Assembly (NCBI GenBank): GCA_902826215.1
Contig: CADEDY010000003.1
Coordinates: 62,001-126,000 of the forward strand
Direction of reading: 5' to 3'
Source: an uncultured Bacteroidota bacterium
GTDB taxonomy: Bacteria > Bacteroidota > Bacteroidia > Flavobacteriales_F > PHOS-HE28
Length of the DNA: 64,000 nt
Part shown: in pieces, positions 19,094 to 42,587 of the stretch
Layout of the letters: each line of letters begins with the position of its first letter
Position numbering within the stretch: the first letter of the stretch is position 1
Notes under the pieces: model-generated
Told to the model about the DNA's origin: nothing
Databases searched by the model: none
The model's input: only the letters and a program-made list of their open reading frames with translations
Position numbers and translations under genes: made by a program

Positions 19094-19954
19094 ATGGAGA
19101 ACATCCCAAGCATTCCGGCAGGCCGGACACGGATCGCCCCAACACCGAGCGGTTTTCTCCACGTTGGGAACGCGTTCAACTTCTTGCTGACCGAAACGTT
19201 GGCACGCTCCAGCGGTAGCCGATTGCTGTTGCGCATCGACGATCTGGATACCGAGCGGAAGCGTCCCGAATACGTCAGTGACATCTTCGCAACGCTTGAA
19301 TGGCTTGGGATCCGGCCCGATGAGGGCCCCTCGGGGGTGGAGGACTTCGAACGGAACTGGTCGCAGGAACTTCGGCAGGATAGATGCTTGGCACTCGGTG
19401 CGCGATTGAAGGAACAGGATGTCCTTTATGCGTGCAACTGTTCCCGATCCGAACTCCACGCGAATGGAGCCGCGGGTCTACCGCACGAATGCCGCAGCAT
19501 ACCTTCGGTCGGCAATTCAGTGGCTTGGCGGCTTCGGGTGGACCCTCCTTGCAAGGTCGTCATGAACGAACTCTCAGGCCGTATTCAAGAGGTGGATCTT
19601 GCCGATCACATGTCGGATCCAGTTCTGCTTCAGCGAGATACAGGTCGGTCGGCCTACCAGCTGGCATCCTTGAGTGACGACATCGAAATGGGGGTGACCT
19701 TCATTGTGCGAGGCATGGATCTCTTGCCGTCATCGCTTTGTCAGCTTCATTTGGCTGATCGTCTAGGATTGTCCTCATTCCAGCGGTCCCGCTTCCTGCA
19801 TCACCCCCTTTTATTGGATTCCGAAGGGCAGAAACGGTCCAAGTCAGCGGGAGGACCCCGCGGCACTTTGCGGGAATCGGGCATTCACCCACATAAGATC
19901 CGGGATGCGGTGATAAGGTACCTCGAGGGAAAGGACGGGCACTTTATCGCTTGA
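19094..19954 (+). CDS. Glutamyl-Q tRNA(Asp) synthetase-like protein (GluRS catalytic-domain paralogue)
   Basis: A 286-residue class I aminoacyl-tRNA-synthetase fragment protein with only the catalytic half of GluRS. Seen: an HIGH-type motif in APTPSGFLHVGNAF, RIDDLDTERKRPEYV, and a KMSKS-type motif in GQKRSKSAGG. There is no anticodon-binding domain. Family members (GluQ-RS) load glutamate onto queuosine in tRNA-Asp. A Cys cluster (CNCSRSEL...HEC) resembles the zinc site, with His near the place of the usual Tyr ligand. It starts 25 bases after tRNA-Leu and may share its transcript. Its 3' end overlaps the convergent Fic gene by 11 bases. Confidence 0.8.
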   Translation: MENIPSIPAGRTRIAPTPSGFLHVGNAFNFLLTETLARSSGSRLLLRIDDLDTERKRPEYVSDIFATLEWLGIRPDEGPSGVEDFERNWSQELRQDRCLALGARLKEQDVLYACNCSRSELHANGAAGLPHECRSIPSVGNSVAWRLRVDPPCKVVMNELSGRIQEVDLADHMSDPVLLQRDTGRSAYQLASLSDDIEMGVTFIVRGMDLLPSSLCQLHLADRLGLSSFQRSRFLHHPLLLDSEGQKRSKSAGGPRGTLRESGIHPHKIRDAVIRYLEGKDGHFIA

Positions 19955-21086
19955 AGGCGAGGAGCTGGCCACGTTCCACCTGGATCCCCTCGGGTGAACG
20001 GCGAACAATGCCAGCAGCTACCAAGGCGTCCACGTCACGCCGCAAGGTCTTCTCCGAAACCCCCGCATACAGCTTCGCCAGAGCAGTGGAGAGTGCTGGG
20101 AGGTCCGATTGGGGCAGGGCAATACCGTGTTCACCAAGATCCAGCAGCACCTGTCGTTGTCGACGGGTCGGAGCGTCGTTCGCATCGCTGAAGAGATCCA
20201 GCAACTGGGCCCGCCATTGCGCGGTGATCTGGAGGTCGCGCGCCCGCTCATGGATCTCCCGCAGGCCATCTGAGATACCACGCAGGGCGAACGCGAGAAA
20301 AGGGATCGGATCGGCCATGCCAGCTGCAGCTTGATCGGTCTGGAACCGGAATGCACGAGCCGAATGCATGAAGAAACGCGCTGCAAGATGTCCAGCGGTG
20401 CTTCCGACGCCACCTTGTCGCAGGATCTCCAGTGAAAGAGTGCCGATCAACTTGCCATTCCCGAAGCCGAATGGCCGGATCCAAGCCCAATACAGCTCCG
20501 CGACCAAGGCCCGTAGCAAGGCGAAAGCAGGAACTTCTTCTTCCGTTGGCGCAGCAAGTTCCGGCCCATTGAGCCAGTCACAGAGTTCCTCGATGAACAA
20601 GCTGATCACCTCCGGAGGAACACCCTCCAAGGGTGAAATGCCGTAGGGGGAAATGCGCCAAGCTCCGGCTCGTTCGATGCCTTTTTCTGGATTGCCAAGC
20701 GCCCTGTGTATTTCGAGGATCCAGCTCGGATCGAGGGTTCGTCCTTCCGGCGAAGGAGCTTGCAAAAGCCGCTGCCACGTATGGAGGAGGTCGTCCAATT
20801 CGAGCTGGGCGCTTTCTTGGCTAGAGGGGAGTTGCAGCCTTCCTTGTAGGTGAAGCTGGATCTGATCGGCACCGAGTGATATGCCGTCCTGGGCTAACCG
20901 TGCTTGCAATCCCATTCCAAGGACCTCGCGCTCCAAGGCCCGGCTTTCTGTTGGGGTCAATGGAATGGCGGTGAGATGCCGGATCCCTGCAACGCATTCA
21001 CCCAACAGAAGCCAGAATGAAGGGGGGGCTTGACGCAGGTCCAGCTTGAACCGTAGCCATGAGATCGTCTCTTGATAGGGCCGCAT
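19944..21086 (-). CDS. Fic-domain protein with degenerate active-site motif and C-terminal winged helix
   Basis: A 380-residue Fic-family protein. Fic enzymes usually transfer AMP (or another nucleotide group) to target hydroxyls through the motif HPFx(D/E)GNGRxxR. Here the motif reads RPFGFGNGKLIG (residues 204-215): the catalytic His is Arg204, the acidic residue is Phe208, the first Arg is Lys212 and the second is Gly215. AMPylation is therefore unlikely. The N-terminal part (SWLRFKLDLRQAP, then helices to residue 110) resembles the DUF4172-type start of Fic proteins. The C-terminal 70 residues look like a DeoR-type winged helix (VSEKTLRRDVDALVAAGIVRR). A DNA-binding regulatory role is inferred. 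Confidence 0.85.
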   Translation of the reverse strand: MRPYQETISWLRFKLDLRQAPPSFWLLLGECVAGIRHLTAIPLTPTESRALEREVLGMGLQARLAQDGISLGADQIQLHLQGRLQLPSSQESAQLELDDLLHTWQRLLQAPSPEGRTLDPSWILEIHRALGNPEKGIERAGAWRISPYGISPLEGVPPEVISLFIEELCDWLNGPELAAPTEEEVPAFALLRALVAELYWAWIRPFGFGNGKLIGTLSLEILRQGGVGSTAGHLAARFFMHSARAFRFQTDQAAAGMADPIPFLAFALRGISDGLREIHERARDLQITAQWRAQLLDLFSDANDAPTRRQRQVLLDLGEHGIALPQSDLPALSTALAKLYAGVSEKTLRRDVDALVAAGIVRRSPEGIQVERGQLLAFKR

Positions 21087-21182
21087 TGGTGTCCAAATAT
21101 CTGTACATCAAGACTACCTAATTATCAATCATCTAAGGCAATTTTCAACAATTCAATGTCCAACCTTCTGTCCACACCAATG
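21084..21182. repeat. AT-rich upstream region of the Fic gene with 9-bp inverted repeat
   Basis: CATTGGTGT (21084-21092, overlapping the start codon) is repeated in inverted form as ACACCAATG (21174-21182). AATGTCC also occurs twice, 25 bases apart (21155-21161 and 21180-21186). The region is markedly A+T-rich compared with its surroundings. It may hold the promoter and operator of the Fic gene, but no exact TAnnTTTG box is present (the closest is GATATTTG). Confidence 0.4.
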
Positions 21183-21229
21183 TCCCAAATGATGACTTCC
21201 AATATGACCACACGAATTTAACCGAGATC

Positions 21230-21871
21230 TCAGACTCCGGCAAGCAGCGCGATCACAGTGATCAAACCGGCTAGGCAGCCGACCAGCAAGGCCGTAATTG
21301 CGAATCCTTTTCCGCGCCATTCATAGGTGCGACCTCTTCGCACCGCGATCGAGGCGACCACCAACGTGAGGACCAAGGCCAGAACCGCAATGGCCTCACT
21401 CGTCCCAAGAATGGCATAGGCGACTGTGCTCAAGGCCAGAACGAAGGCGGGAACAGCCCAAGGGTTCCATTTGGCTTTAGGTTTCTCTGGGGCGCTCAAG
21501 TCCTTGTCGTTCAGCGGTGCGTCAGTGGCGGCCGGTCCGGGGTCGATGGCAGGAGGGATCCCTGGTGCGAGTGAGGCGGACACATCCAACTTGGACGTTG
21601 GTGCGTTGGGCACTTTTTCCGTGGTCGGATCCATGAATACCGGAAGTTCAGTGGTTCCTTCCATCCGCTCGCGCCCCCCACGATCATTCGGGAGGATGGG
21701 AGATGGAACATTGCTCTTTCGCAGTCCGAGATCGATGTGCCAGCCGCTCTGGTGTCTTCGTTTCTGGAACGCGCCGTCGCCTACGGTGGACCTTTGGTTC
21801 GAACACGCCATAAGCGAGCCAACAAGTATGAACAGCAGAAGCCCGCGGCCTCGTCCAAAGAGGATGTGCAT
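21230..21871 (-). CDS. Lipoprotein with two C-terminal membrane helices, function unknown
   Basis: A 213-residue protein. The lipobox LVGSLMAC is at residues 16-23. Shortly after comes FQKRRHQSGWHIDLG, a motif (QKRKY..G.H.D.G type) that recurs in membrane proteins of this phylum; its role is unknown to me. A Pro/Ala-rich stretch with acidic residues follows (about 60-130). Then come two or three hydrophobic segments (VPAFVLALSTVAYAILG, IAVLALVLTLVVASIAV, ITALLVGCLAGLITVIALLAG) with a basic loop RRGRTYEWRGKGFA, as in DUF4190-like tails. It lies 23 bases after adenine deaminase on the same strand, so it is probably the distal gene of that transcript. Confidence 0.7.
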   Translation of the reverse strand: MHILFGRGRGLLLFILVGSLMACSNQRSTVGDGAFQKRRHQSGWHIDLGLRKSNVPSPILPNDRGGRERMEGTTELPVFMDPTTEKVPNAPTSKLDVSASLAPGIPPAIDPGPAATDAPLNDKDLSAPEKPKAKWNPWAVPAFVLALSTVAYAILGTSEAIAVLALVLTLVVASIAVRRGRTYEWRGKGFAITALLVGCLAGLITVIALLAGV

Positions 21872-38280: not shown

Positions 38281-39252
38281 CTATTTGGACATACGGTATT
38301 CCGCTCGTCGTTTAGTGCCCGATAATTCCACGATGCCTTTCGAGACCGCTTCAGCAAGGTCCCTGCTGGCCGTTGCCGTGGATAGTTCGGGGAACATGCT
38401 CATATATTCCTTGCGTTGGAATGAGCGGTTCGTGGCAAGGTCCAAGAACAGCCCTATCCGTTGAAGACCAGTGCGCATCGGATCAGGAGCGGCGAGAAGT
38501 TCGGCCAAAGCTTCGTCGATCCGCTCCAATAGGTACGCGATGAAATCGCCGCAATCCCCGCGTCGGTCCGCGTACTCCAAGGCGGCATAATACGCTGGTT
38601 GGGTCCGTTGGATGAAGGCTTCCACGGGTAGGTAGGCGAAGACGGGCCAGTAGGCCATAAGCATCCGTCTCTGCCACAAACGAGCTAAGCGACCGTTGCC
38701 AGCAGTGAAAGGGCGCAGGTAGACCAGACCGAAATGAAGCGCGCAACTGGTCAATAGGGCAGGGAAGTCATCTTCTTCTGCGTAGCGCAAGAGTTCTTGA
38801 ACATTCACCGGTAGATCGTGGGCACTCGCGGTGCGAAGCGGCTCGGGGTCGCCGTAGAGCACGTCCATAGGCCCCGTCCGGAAATGGCCAGCATCCAAAG
38901 CCAAGCCGTGCATCAACACACCATGCGCATGTCGAAGGTCGTGCTCCACGAAAGGGTCCAACTCAGCCACCAAGGTGTGGGCGCGGTGGGTGTTCACGGC
39001 CTCAAGCGCGGCAGAGCCCTCCGGTGCGGTGCCGTGCTGGTCCACCAGTTCAGCCACGGGCAAAGCGTCCAAAGTGCTCCCCTCGATGGCCAAGGTGCCG
39101 TGTACCACGCTGACGTGATAGGCTTTTTCAAGGTCAAGGGCAGGCTTGTGCAAGTGCCTGGCGTGGACCTCTCCAAGCCGATGATGGATCGTGGCGAGCA
39201 GGCTAAGCATGCGAGGGCTGATCGAGTAGTAAGTGAGGCTTGCAACGTCCAT
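38281..39252 (-). CDS. Fic-domain protein with Arg for the catalytic His and C-terminal winged helix
   Basis: A 323-residue class II-like Fic protein. The inhibitory-helix motif (S/T)xxxE(G/N) is present as TLAIEG (T53-G58). The catalytic signature is RPFTAGNGRLAR (residues 180-191): the general-base His is Arg180 and the metal-binding acidic residue is Ala184, whereas Arg188 and Arg191 are kept. The phosphate-binding loop thus survives but the chemistry should not. The codon is CGC, one change from CAC. The C-terminus (STATASRDLAEAVSKGIVELSG) looks like a winged helix. Upstream are an exact -7 box and a palindrome at the predicted transcription start, so autoregulation is likely. Confidence 0.88.
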   Translation of the reverse strand: MDVASLTYYSISPRMLSLLATIHHRLGEVHARHLHKPALDLEKAYHVSVVHGTLAIEGSTLDALPVAELVDQHGTAPEGSAALEAVNTHRAHTLVAELDPFVEHDLRHAHGVLMHGLALDAGHFRTGPMDVLYGDPEPLRTASAHDLPVNVQELLRYAEEDDFPALLTSCALHFGLVYLRPFTAGNGRLARLWQRRMLMAYWPVFAYLPVEAFIQRTQPAYYAALEYADRRGDCGDFIAYLLERIDEALAELLAAPDPMRTGLQRIGLFLDLATNRSFQRKEYMSMFPELSTATASRDLAEAVSKGIVELSGTKRRAEYRMSK

Positions 39253-39259
39253 TTTATAG

Positions 39260-39287
39260 TATCATATGATATTAACAAAGGTATCAT
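39260..39287. promoter_or_regulatory. Palindromic operator candidate of the Fic gene
   Basis: TATCATATGATA (39260-39271) is a perfect 12-bp palindrome lying on the predicted first transcribed bases. A third half-site TATCAT is at 39282-39287, 22 bases (two helical turns) from the first and touching the -7 box. This is the layout of a site for a dimeric winged-helix repressor. Confidence 0.5.
39276..39283 (-). promoter_or_regulatory. Bacteroidota -7 box (TACCTTTG, minus strand) of the Fic gene
   Basis: An exact TAnnTTTG match on the minus strand, 23 bases before the Fic ATG. The predicted start of transcription (about 39271) falls on the edge of the palindrome. Confidence 0.6.
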
Positions 39288-39480
39288 TGGTATGGATCGA
39301 ATGGGATATCCGTTTCAGATAACAAGAACCCGAACCCCCGTCCCCAACGGGATCGAGGCATGCTAATGGGGCATACATCCACTTGGATCGCAGGGTTTTA
39401 CGAGGATGATCGTAGCAAAACCGGATCCAGCGGGGGATATAGAAATCAGGTGACCCCAGAGAAATTTCCTTCAACACCAG
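39288..39480. other. Non-coding part of the Fic-rpsL intergenic region
   Basis: The divergent Fic and rpsL genes are 318 bases apart. Besides the promoter elements listed separately, this middle part has only a small weak hairpin (CCCGT / ACGGG near 39337-39351). No open frame with recognisable content, RNA gene or repeat was seen. Confidence 0.4.
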
Positions 39481-39510
39481 TTGGTTCGAAAGTGAATCCC
39501 GTTACCTTTG
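39481..39510 (+). promoter_or_regulatory. Promoter of the ribosomal superoperon
   Basis: TTGG (39481-39484) and TACCTTTG (39503-39510), an exact -7 box, are 18 bases apart. Transcription would begin near 39515, giving a leader of about 56 bases with a small CCTA/TAGG hairpin before rpsL. Confidence 0.65.
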
Positions 39511-39560
39511 CAGCCCGTTTTTCGCCTAGGAATAGGTGCATCAACCTGAAAGTCAAGACG

Positions 39561-39567
39561 AAAGGAG
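39561..39567 (+). promoter_or_regulatory. Shine-Dalgarno sequence of rpsL
   Basis: AAAGGAG ends three bases before the rpsL ATG. Such a strong match is an exception here: the following genes checked (rpsG, fusA, rplB) have none, as usual in Bacteroidota. Confidence 0.6.
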
Positions 39568-39570
39568 CTC

Positions 39571-39969
<399 letters not shown>

Positions 39970-39989
39970 TCTGTCATTGAACAGCAGCC

Positions 39990-40454
39990 ATGCGCAAAAA
40001 GACAGTCAAGCACACCACGCTCCCCGACCCCAAGTTCGGTGACGTGCAAGTGACCAAGTTCGTGAACAACTTGATGTACGACGGTAAGAAGAGTAAGTCC
40101 TTGGACATCTTCTACAACGCCATCGAAATCGTTGCCGAAAAGAGCGGTGAGGACGGTCTGGAGATATTCCGGAAAGCCCTTACGAACGTTACACCACAAG
40201 TGGAAGTGCGCAGTCGTCGTGTAGGCGGTGCGAATTTTCAGATCCCACAGGCGGTTCGCGAGGACCGCAAGAAGAGCCTCGCGATGAAGTGGTTGATCGG
40301 CTACGCCCGCAACCGCAACGAACGGAGCATGGCGAACAAGCTCGCGAATGAGATCCTCGCCGCTTCGAAGGAAGAAGGAGGAGCATTCAAGAAGAAGGAA
40401 GAGATCCACAAGATGGCCGAGGCGAACAAAGCGTTCAGCCACTTCCGCTTCTGA
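39990..40454 (+). CDS. rpsG: 30S ribosomal protein S7
   Basis: 154 residues, primary 16S rRNA binder of the 30S head. It begins [18 protein letters not shown] and has the conserved [27 protein letters not shown] and [14 protein letters not shown] segments. It is 20 bases after rpsL. The C-terminus ([13 protein letters not shown]) matches the usual end. Confidence 0.99.
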
Positions 40455-40478
40455 TAACGACGGTAGAGCACGAGATCA

Positions 40479-42587
40479 ATGGCCAAAAGGGACCTAGCAT
40501 ATACGCGGAACATCGGCATCATGGCCCACATCGATGCGGGCAAGACGACGACGTCCGAGCGCATCCTGTACTATACGGGTCTTGTACACAAGATCGGTGA
40601 GGTGCACGACGGTGCTGCCACGATGGATTGGATGGCGCAGGAGCAGGAGCGTGGCATCACGATCACCAGCGCTGCTACCACAACCAGCTGGAAGTACCGC
40701 GACCAGACCTACAAGATCAACCTGATCGACACCCCGGGCCACGTGGACTTCACCGTAGAGGTGGAGCGCAGCCTTCGTGTGTTGGACGGCGCTGTGGCCC
40801 TGTTCTGTGCTGTTGGTGGCGTTGAGCCCCAAAGCGAGACCGTGTGGCGCCAAGCGAACAAGTACAAAGTGCCACGTATCGGCTTCGTGAACAAGATGGA
40901 CCGCAGTGGTGCCGACTTCTTCAACGTGGTGAAGCAGATCCGTGAGCGTCTGGGTGCGAACCCTGTTCCCCTGCAAGTCCCGATCGGTGCAGAAGCCGAT
41001 TTCAAAGGTGTGGTCGATCTTATCAACAACCGCGGAATGGTGTGGAACGAAGCTGATCAGGGCATGACCTGGAGCGAAGTTCCGATCCCAGAGGATCTGA
41101 AGGAGACGGTGAAGGAGTGGCGCGACAAGCTCATTGAAGCTGTTGCCGAGAGCGACGACAAGTTGATGGAGAAGTATTTCTCCGATCCCGATAGCTTGAC
41201 CGAGGATGAAGTGATGGCTGCGATCCGCAAGAGCGCGATCAACATGAGCATCACGCCGATCCTCTGCGGTAGCGCCTTCAAGAACAAGGGCGTGCAGACC
41301 ATGCTAGACGCGGTGATGGCCTACTTGCCTAGCCCAATGGATATCGAGGCCGTGACCGGTATCGATCCACGTACGGATGCAGAAGTGTTGCGCCGTCCTG
41401 ATCCTGCTGAACCATTTGCAGGCTTGGCATTCAAGATCGCCACCGACCCCTTCGTAGGGCGTTTGGCATTCTTCCGTGCATACAGCGGTGTGCTGGAGGC
41501 CGGTAGCTATGTGCTCAACACCCGTAGCGACAAGAAAGAGCGCATCAGCCGTATTTTCCAAATGCACTCCAACAAGCAGAATGCGGTCGACCAGATCGCG
41601 GCTGGTGACATTGGAGCAGCTGTTGGTTTCAAGGACATCCGTACCGGTGACACTTTGTGCGCCGAGGAGCATCCGATCATTCTGGAGAGCATGAGCTTCC
41701 CAGAACCGGTGATCGGTATTGCTGTGGAGCCGAAGACCCAAGCTGACCTGGATAAGATGGGTGCTGCTTTGGCGAAACTCGCCGAAGAGGATCCGACATT
41801 CAAAGTTCATACGGACGAAGACACCGGCCAGACCGTGATCAGCGGAATGGGCGAGTTGCACTTGGAGATCCTGGTGGACCGCATGAAGCGCGAGTTCAAA
41901 GTGGAGTGCAACCAAGGTGCGCCACAGGTGAAGTACAAGGAGGCCATCAGCGGCACCGTGGAACACCGTGAGTTGTACAAAAAGCAGACAGGTGGTCGCG
42001 GTAAGTTCGCTGACATCCATGTGCGCATCGAACCACAGACCGATCCTGAGAAGACGGGCTTGGAGTTCATCGATGAGATCAAGGGTGGTTCCATCCCGAA
42101 GGAATTCATCGGACCTGTTCAAAAGGGCTTCGAAGGTTCCTTGAAGAACGGTGTTCTCGCTGGTTATCCAATGGAAAGCCTGAAAGTGACCCTGTACGAT
42201 GGATCCTTCCACAACGTGGATTCCGATGCCTTGAGCTTCGAGATCTGCGCGAAGTCGGCCTTCCGTACAGCCATCCCGAAGTGTAAGCCGGTACTGCTCG
42301 AGCCGATCATGAAGATCGAGGTGATCACACCGGAAGAGAACATGGGTGATATCGTAGGTGACCTCAACCGTCGCCGTGGTACAATCGTGGGCATGGAGGA
42401 CCGTGCCGGCGCGAAAGCCATCAAGGGCACTGTGCCGTTGAGCGAGATGTTCGGTTACGTGACCTCGTTGCGTACGCTCTCCAGCGGCCGCGCTAGTAGC
42501 ACCATGGAATTCAGTCATTACGTACCAGCACCCAACAACGTGACCGAAGCCGTTTTGGCCAAGGTGCGTGGAAAGGTTTCAGCATAA
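40479..42587 (+). CDS. fusA: Elongation factor G
   Basis: A 702-residue translocase GTPase. G1 [10 protein letters not shown]2 region [12 protein letters not shown]3 DTPGHVDF and G4 [10 protein letters not shown] are intact, followed by domains II-V ([10 protein letters not shown] in domain III-V linkage, GGRGKFADI in domain IV). Third gene of the str part; tuf, which often follows fusA elsewhere, is not here. Downstream, rpsJ starts after only 15 bases, so the str and S10 parts are joined. Confidence 0.99.

Follow-up and report, generated by a model that had tools for sequence, protein, structure and literature searches.

A genus-wide, catalytically degenerate Fic-winged-helix protein and its predicted palindromic operator suggest a defence enzyme turned gene regulator

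Anti-phage Fic proteins of the SoFic and EcSofic type consist of an N-terminal inhibitory helix, the Fic fold and a C-terminal winged helix, and the toxicity of SoFic requires its catalytic His. The protein that we describe here, FicA, has the same architecture, but its catalytic His and metal ligand are replaced, its gene occupies a fixed core locus, and abortive-infection toxicity is not evident for it. CccR of Yersinia pseudotuberculosis, which like FicA is a class II Fic protein with a C-terminal helix-turn-helix (HTH), represses its own promoter via ATCAT half-sites, close to the ATCA half-site found at the FicA promoter, and its H192A form restored repression (PMC9755527). CccR differs from FicA in that it retains the His and AMPylates FtsZ (PMC9755527), whereas neither secretion nor toxicity is known for FicA. 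CbFic2 of Coxiella, also a class II Fic protein with a winged helix, binds DNA and dimerises on it; unlike FicA it is an active (de)AMPylase, and the text consulted makes no mention of autoregulation (PMC10628234). BepC of Bartonella and other proteins share with FicA a non-canonical FIC motif, and no enzymatic activity has been found for them; BepC, however, retains the His, and where FicA has a DNA-binding domain it has a BID domain (PMC8401265). Fic2 of Campylobacter fetus is degenerate, yet it retains and needs its His (PMC5651007). The closest solved structure to FicA over the whole length is 4rgl, the Fic family protein Dde_2494 of Desulfovibrio, which differs from FicA in its canonical active site, the aligned motif being HPFADGNGR.

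FicA is encoded at 38281-39252 on the minus strand of the window, by which we mean the whole stretch of 64,000 nucleotides that was analysed, and comprises 323 amino acids from an ATG start. The Fic profile PF02661 matches residues 102-196 (E 1.1e-10, Pfam), and the PADLOC SoFic profile extends across both the Fic domain and the winged helix (E 2.6e-23; residues 14-317 against profile positions 24-347 of 361), although the catalytic His of SoFic is absent. The AlphaFold2 model, built on 45 aligned sequences (pLDDT 90.5), displays a Fic core, a target-docking flap of two strands (129-131, 140-142) and a C-terminal winged helix, made of HTH helices 280-286 and 292-304 and strands 308-311 and 318-321. 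Among solved relatives 4rgl is the best (E 7e-32), and the model matches it over the full length (Z 34.8, 310 residues, 26% identity) with an rmsd of 11.4, a large value that we attribute to the two domains being arranged differently; Pfam profile, model and 4rgl match all identify the Fic (Fido) fold. The active-site loop RPFTAGNGRLAR, of the pattern LRPF-TA-GNGR-LA-R, departs from the HPFx(D/E)GNGRxxR of active Fic AMP-transferases by having Arg180 for the His and Ala184 for the Asp, and it retains the phosphate-binding Arg188 and Arg191. The class II motif (S/T)xxxE(G/N) is present as TLAIEG with the inhibitory Glu57. In all these residues the class II Fic protein is as an earlier note on this DNA, which named no strand, had described it.

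When 45 genomes of the genus were sampled, 40 had a full-length FicA orthologue and one had a piece at a contig end adjoining rpsL. Three of the other four are without rpsL too and are therefore incomplete at that place, which leaves G014 as the only genome where rpsL is present and FicA absent. Position 180 is Arg in 39 of the 40 orthologues and Cys once (L041); Ala184, Arg188 and Arg191 occur in 40/40, Gly185 and Asn186 are invariant, and the inhibitory Glu57 is retained in 39/40. Close FicA pairs with usable synonymous divergence gave dN/dS values of 0.05-0.16, figures that come from such pairs only, distant ones being saturated or distorted by codon bias. Eighty further loci were drawn from the genome collection: all 75 outside the genus (mostly Bacteroidota) have HPFxDGNGRxGR, and all five genus members have RPFxAGNGRxAR. 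In a tree of 89 proteins, built with the motif columns included, the RPF sequences form one clade with a support of 100, corresponding to one change. Two genus genomes, G016 and G029, additionally encode an active paralogue of the FicA family (L044, L045), and no viral relatives were found in the IMG/VR scan.

Judged from the sequences, the catalytic residues were lost once, in the ancestor of the whole Flavobacteriales genus, and the gene was retained in nearly every species, together with its fold, its winged helix and the palindrome at its promoter. Random pseudogene decay, which the earlier note had raised against its own proposal, is ruled out by the intact reading frames, the dN/dS values, the fixed motif and the single-clade tree. 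The proposal itself, that of a Fic sub-family which is catalytically degenerate throughout its clade, is borne out by 40 of 40 orthologues under purifying selection that keep the phosphate-binding Arg residues and the inhibitory Glu, and the substitutions, being fixed across these orthologues, are indeed beyond chance for this gene. Degenerate Fic motifs have so far been described protein by protein, while here one clade-fixed catalytic loss runs across a whole genus; the literature searched, with incomplete coverage, contained no description of a clade-fixed pseudo-Fic regulator. A metagenome-assembled genome titled Chryseobacterium gleum (L129, CAMCAZ010000001.1) carries the genus-specific dead FicA beside rpsL and looks misnamed.

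Promoters of Bacteroidota have the -7 box TAnnTTTG, and TACCTTTG, at 39276-39283 on the minus strand upstream of FicA, is presumably a -7 box of this type. It abuts a predicted operator, a strandless palindrome whose core ATCATATGAT (39261-39270) lies 8 bases upstream of the start codon of FicA and is the only copy in the window, and whose 24-base form (39254-39277, strandless) has weakened outer half-sites at this locus. In the genus the core ATCAWWTGAT, mostly ending 6-8 bases before the start codon, is exact in 30 of 39 FicA genes and agrees in at least 9 of 10 bases in 36 of 39. It is also exact in 76 of 80 active homologues, against 43 of 2400 control windows, a set that may include windows overlapping true sites. 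The ancestral 24-base form is TGATASTATCA-WW-TGATASTATCA, which the active homologues match at 23.2 of 24 positions on average and the dead clade at 18.6, again with weakened outer half-sites; affinity or binding mode may therefore have changed in the dead clade. Active Fic-winged-helix genes across Bacteroidota (L133-L207) have TGATASTATCAWWTGATASTATCA, a 24-base palindrome that hardly varies, immediately next to their -7 box, and we predict that it is the family-wide operator of these genes on sequence grounds. It provides an exact 24-base DNA for binding tests with both active relatives from cultured Bacteroidota and the dead FicA, which makes it directly testable what the winged helix does in SoFic-type defence.

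Because of the position of the palindrome, its co-occurrence with the family and the CccR precedent, we infer that FicA itself binds it. As in CccR, there is an inverted repeat at the gene's own promoter, here ATCAWWTGAT directly after the -7 box, and FicA, like CccR, is predicted to act there; the CccR footprint, however, consists of two 10-base repeats 26 bases apart (PMC9755527), whereas the FicA site is a compact palindrome. The winged-helix stretch TATASRDL is largely common to the dead clade and the active homologues. The host genome yielded no further operator in a promoter setting, and the regulon may therefore be FicA alone. A wider regulon was considered and set aside: there are 11 core sites in the host and 20 in other genus genomes, and those away from ficA are mostly without palindromic extension or shared neighbours. 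The palindrome may also lie in the transcribed leader, where it could act as RNA. In G037 a near-full FicA palindrome, GATGCTATCATTTGATAGCATC, stands just upstream of a queG-like gene (L111, 1495-1516), whereas none was observed at the corresponding position of other genomes.

According to our analysis, FicA is probably a domesticated, catalytically dead protein of the SoFic/CccR-like Fic-winged-helix type which represses its own gene via the palindrome, and whose pocket may bind a ligand without transferring it. In the FicA lineage the catalytic His was lost in a single ancestral event along with the Asp that binds the metal. Since then Arg180 and Ala184 have been strictly conserved, as have the phosphate loop GNGRxxR, the winged helix and the inhibitory Glu, and the gene has been fixed at a single place in the chromosome, divergent to rpsL. 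The palindrome right behind FicA's own promoter box, conserved and common to the active relatives, would be bound by FicA dimers, repressing ficA as active CccR does at its promoter. The changes from His to Arg and from Asp to Ala would make the Fic pocket more positive, and a nucleotide or phosphate ligand held there without transfer may tune DNA binding. Nucleotide binding without transfer is plausible by analogy, since SoFic whose inhibitory Glu is intact does bind ATP, but in a pose that is not competent (PMC3667792). As to the earlier note's suggestion of Fic-fold regulators or sensors, the regulator part gains indirect support from the winged helix and the conserved promoter palindrome. 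These features suggest that a defence enzyme of the SoFic family has turned into a permanent gene regulator. With catalysis lost and everything else retained, the FicA clade would separate what Fic-winged-helix proteins do as DNA binders from what they do as enzymes. Autorepression alone explains no benefit, and this counts against our explanation, as do the single-gene regulon, the weakened outer half-sites of the dead clade, a possible action of the palindrome as RNA and the genome G014 with rpsL but not FicA.

FicA might regulate the divergent str operon, coupling the output of translation genes to a signal that the dead pocket senses, a reading that we regard as possible but unlikely. The genes rpsL-rpsG-fusA (39571-42587, plus strand) are divergent to FicA in all 37 genus genomes where both sides are present, the other flank being variable, and the intergenic length is mostly 285-309 bases in spite of a middle that cannot be aligned between species. 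The position next to rpsL is unique to the dead clade: rpsL is near none of the 75 homologues outside the genus (3 kb flanks examined), and a close FicA homologue is patchy in other families of the class (4 of 53 genomes). This fixed site within the genus, set against the absence and patchiness outside it, is typical of an accessory gene turned core gene. The palindrome, however, is situated at the promoter of ficA, about 230 bases away from the -7 box TACCTTTG of rpsL (39503-39510, plus strand), and no copy is found at the rpsL promoter. The rpsL promoter does have a conserved block, but G014 has this block too and no FicA, and the block is therefore independent of FicA. The FicA-rpsL intergenic region (39253-39570 in the window; L077-L096) has a near-constant length, mostly 304-309 bases in the main clade. 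In G017 (L043, 6040-7856 on the strand with FicA on minus), rpsG and fusA show 54% and 61% identity and are far more diverged than in other genus genomes, possibly owing to a replaced or second str operon or to a broken assembly.

FicA could instead be an antitoxin or decoy which neutralises an active Fic protein, whether from the cell itself, from a neighbour or from a phage, by pairing with it or by holding on to its target. Neutralisation of one Fic protein by another is known in Campylobacter fetus (PMC5651007), the target-docking flap hairpin is still predicted in FicA (129-131, 140-142), and in the two genus genomes with an active paralogue the latter is under the same predicted operator (L044, L045). 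Since FicA is nevertheless fixed in 38 genomes that have no active close paralogue from its family, and no flap strands are predicted in its distant homologue FicB, we deem this role improbable. That FicA is still an enzyme, with Arg180 or another residue used for different chemistry, is very improbable: the phosphate loop and flap of the pocket are retained and "dead" members of other folds, e.g., the pseudokinase SelO, have new chemistry (PMC12409994), but 40/40 sequences have neither the general base nor the metal ligand and mutation of the CccR His abolished toxicity (PMC9755527).

Alongside FicA, FicB (19944-21086, minus strand, 380 amino acids) is a second case, one that degenerated independently and has a repeat array to itself. 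FicB is a degenerate Fic-winged-helix protein of a diverged sister family, and its motif region reads WIRPFGFGNGK. Pfam alone detects it weakly (E 0.0075), the PADLOC SoFic profile does so with E 2.4e-15, hhalign relates it to the FicA family with a probability of 99.7, and its AlphaFold model matched Fic structures with Z up to 25.9, with no flap strands predicted in it; profile, alignment and model together speak for a Fic fold. The two genes, which the earlier note had called unrelated, are consequently distant homologues that share the SoFic architecture, as the PADLOC profile and hhalign indicate. The FicB motif WIRPFGFGNGKLIG has Arg for the His, Phe for the Asp and Lys for the first Arg, and the second Arg is absent. 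The His of FicB is lost in all 23 genus genomes, being replaced by Arg in 11 of the 23 and by Gln, Ala, Glu, Ser, Val or Cys in the rest, whereas a FicB relative in another family (L073) retains HPFGDGNGRTGR. The same His-to-Arg change is thus present in both genes here, as had been noted, but it does not characterise the FicB family; what recurs is the loss of the His and not the change to Arg, so that the description as an identical swap is wrong, the argument that it is unlikely by chance is not supported, and the finding of two dead Fic proteins stands.

FicB evolves much faster than FicA. Its locus is fixed, adjoining gluQ and usually a gene of unknown product and an adenine deaminase gene. 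Upstream of FicB, on the minus strand, three GGACA repeats with a 12-base spacing (21157-21185; positions -99, -87 and -75) are joined by a further copy at -8 (21090-21094). The upstream regions contain a mean of 3.1 GGACA copies against a background of 0.29, and the array stands at nearly identical positions across 23 genomes (L051-L072), typically -99, -87, -75 and -8. With the palindrome at FicA and the GGACA array at FicB, both dead Fic genes therefore keep a structured control region. That proteins of the SoFic family twice became dead, ligand-sensing transcription factors in one genus, one of them beside and controlling the str operon, is a doubtful proposition. A linkage between FicA and FicB, which lie 12-20 kb apart in seven other genomes, was rejected as ordinary synteny among housekeeping genes (mutS, dnaJ, grpE, uvrD). 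Between FicB and the adenine deaminase gene, 21230-21871 encodes a protein of 213 amino acids with no Pfam match, which is fast-evolving and present in most genus genomes.
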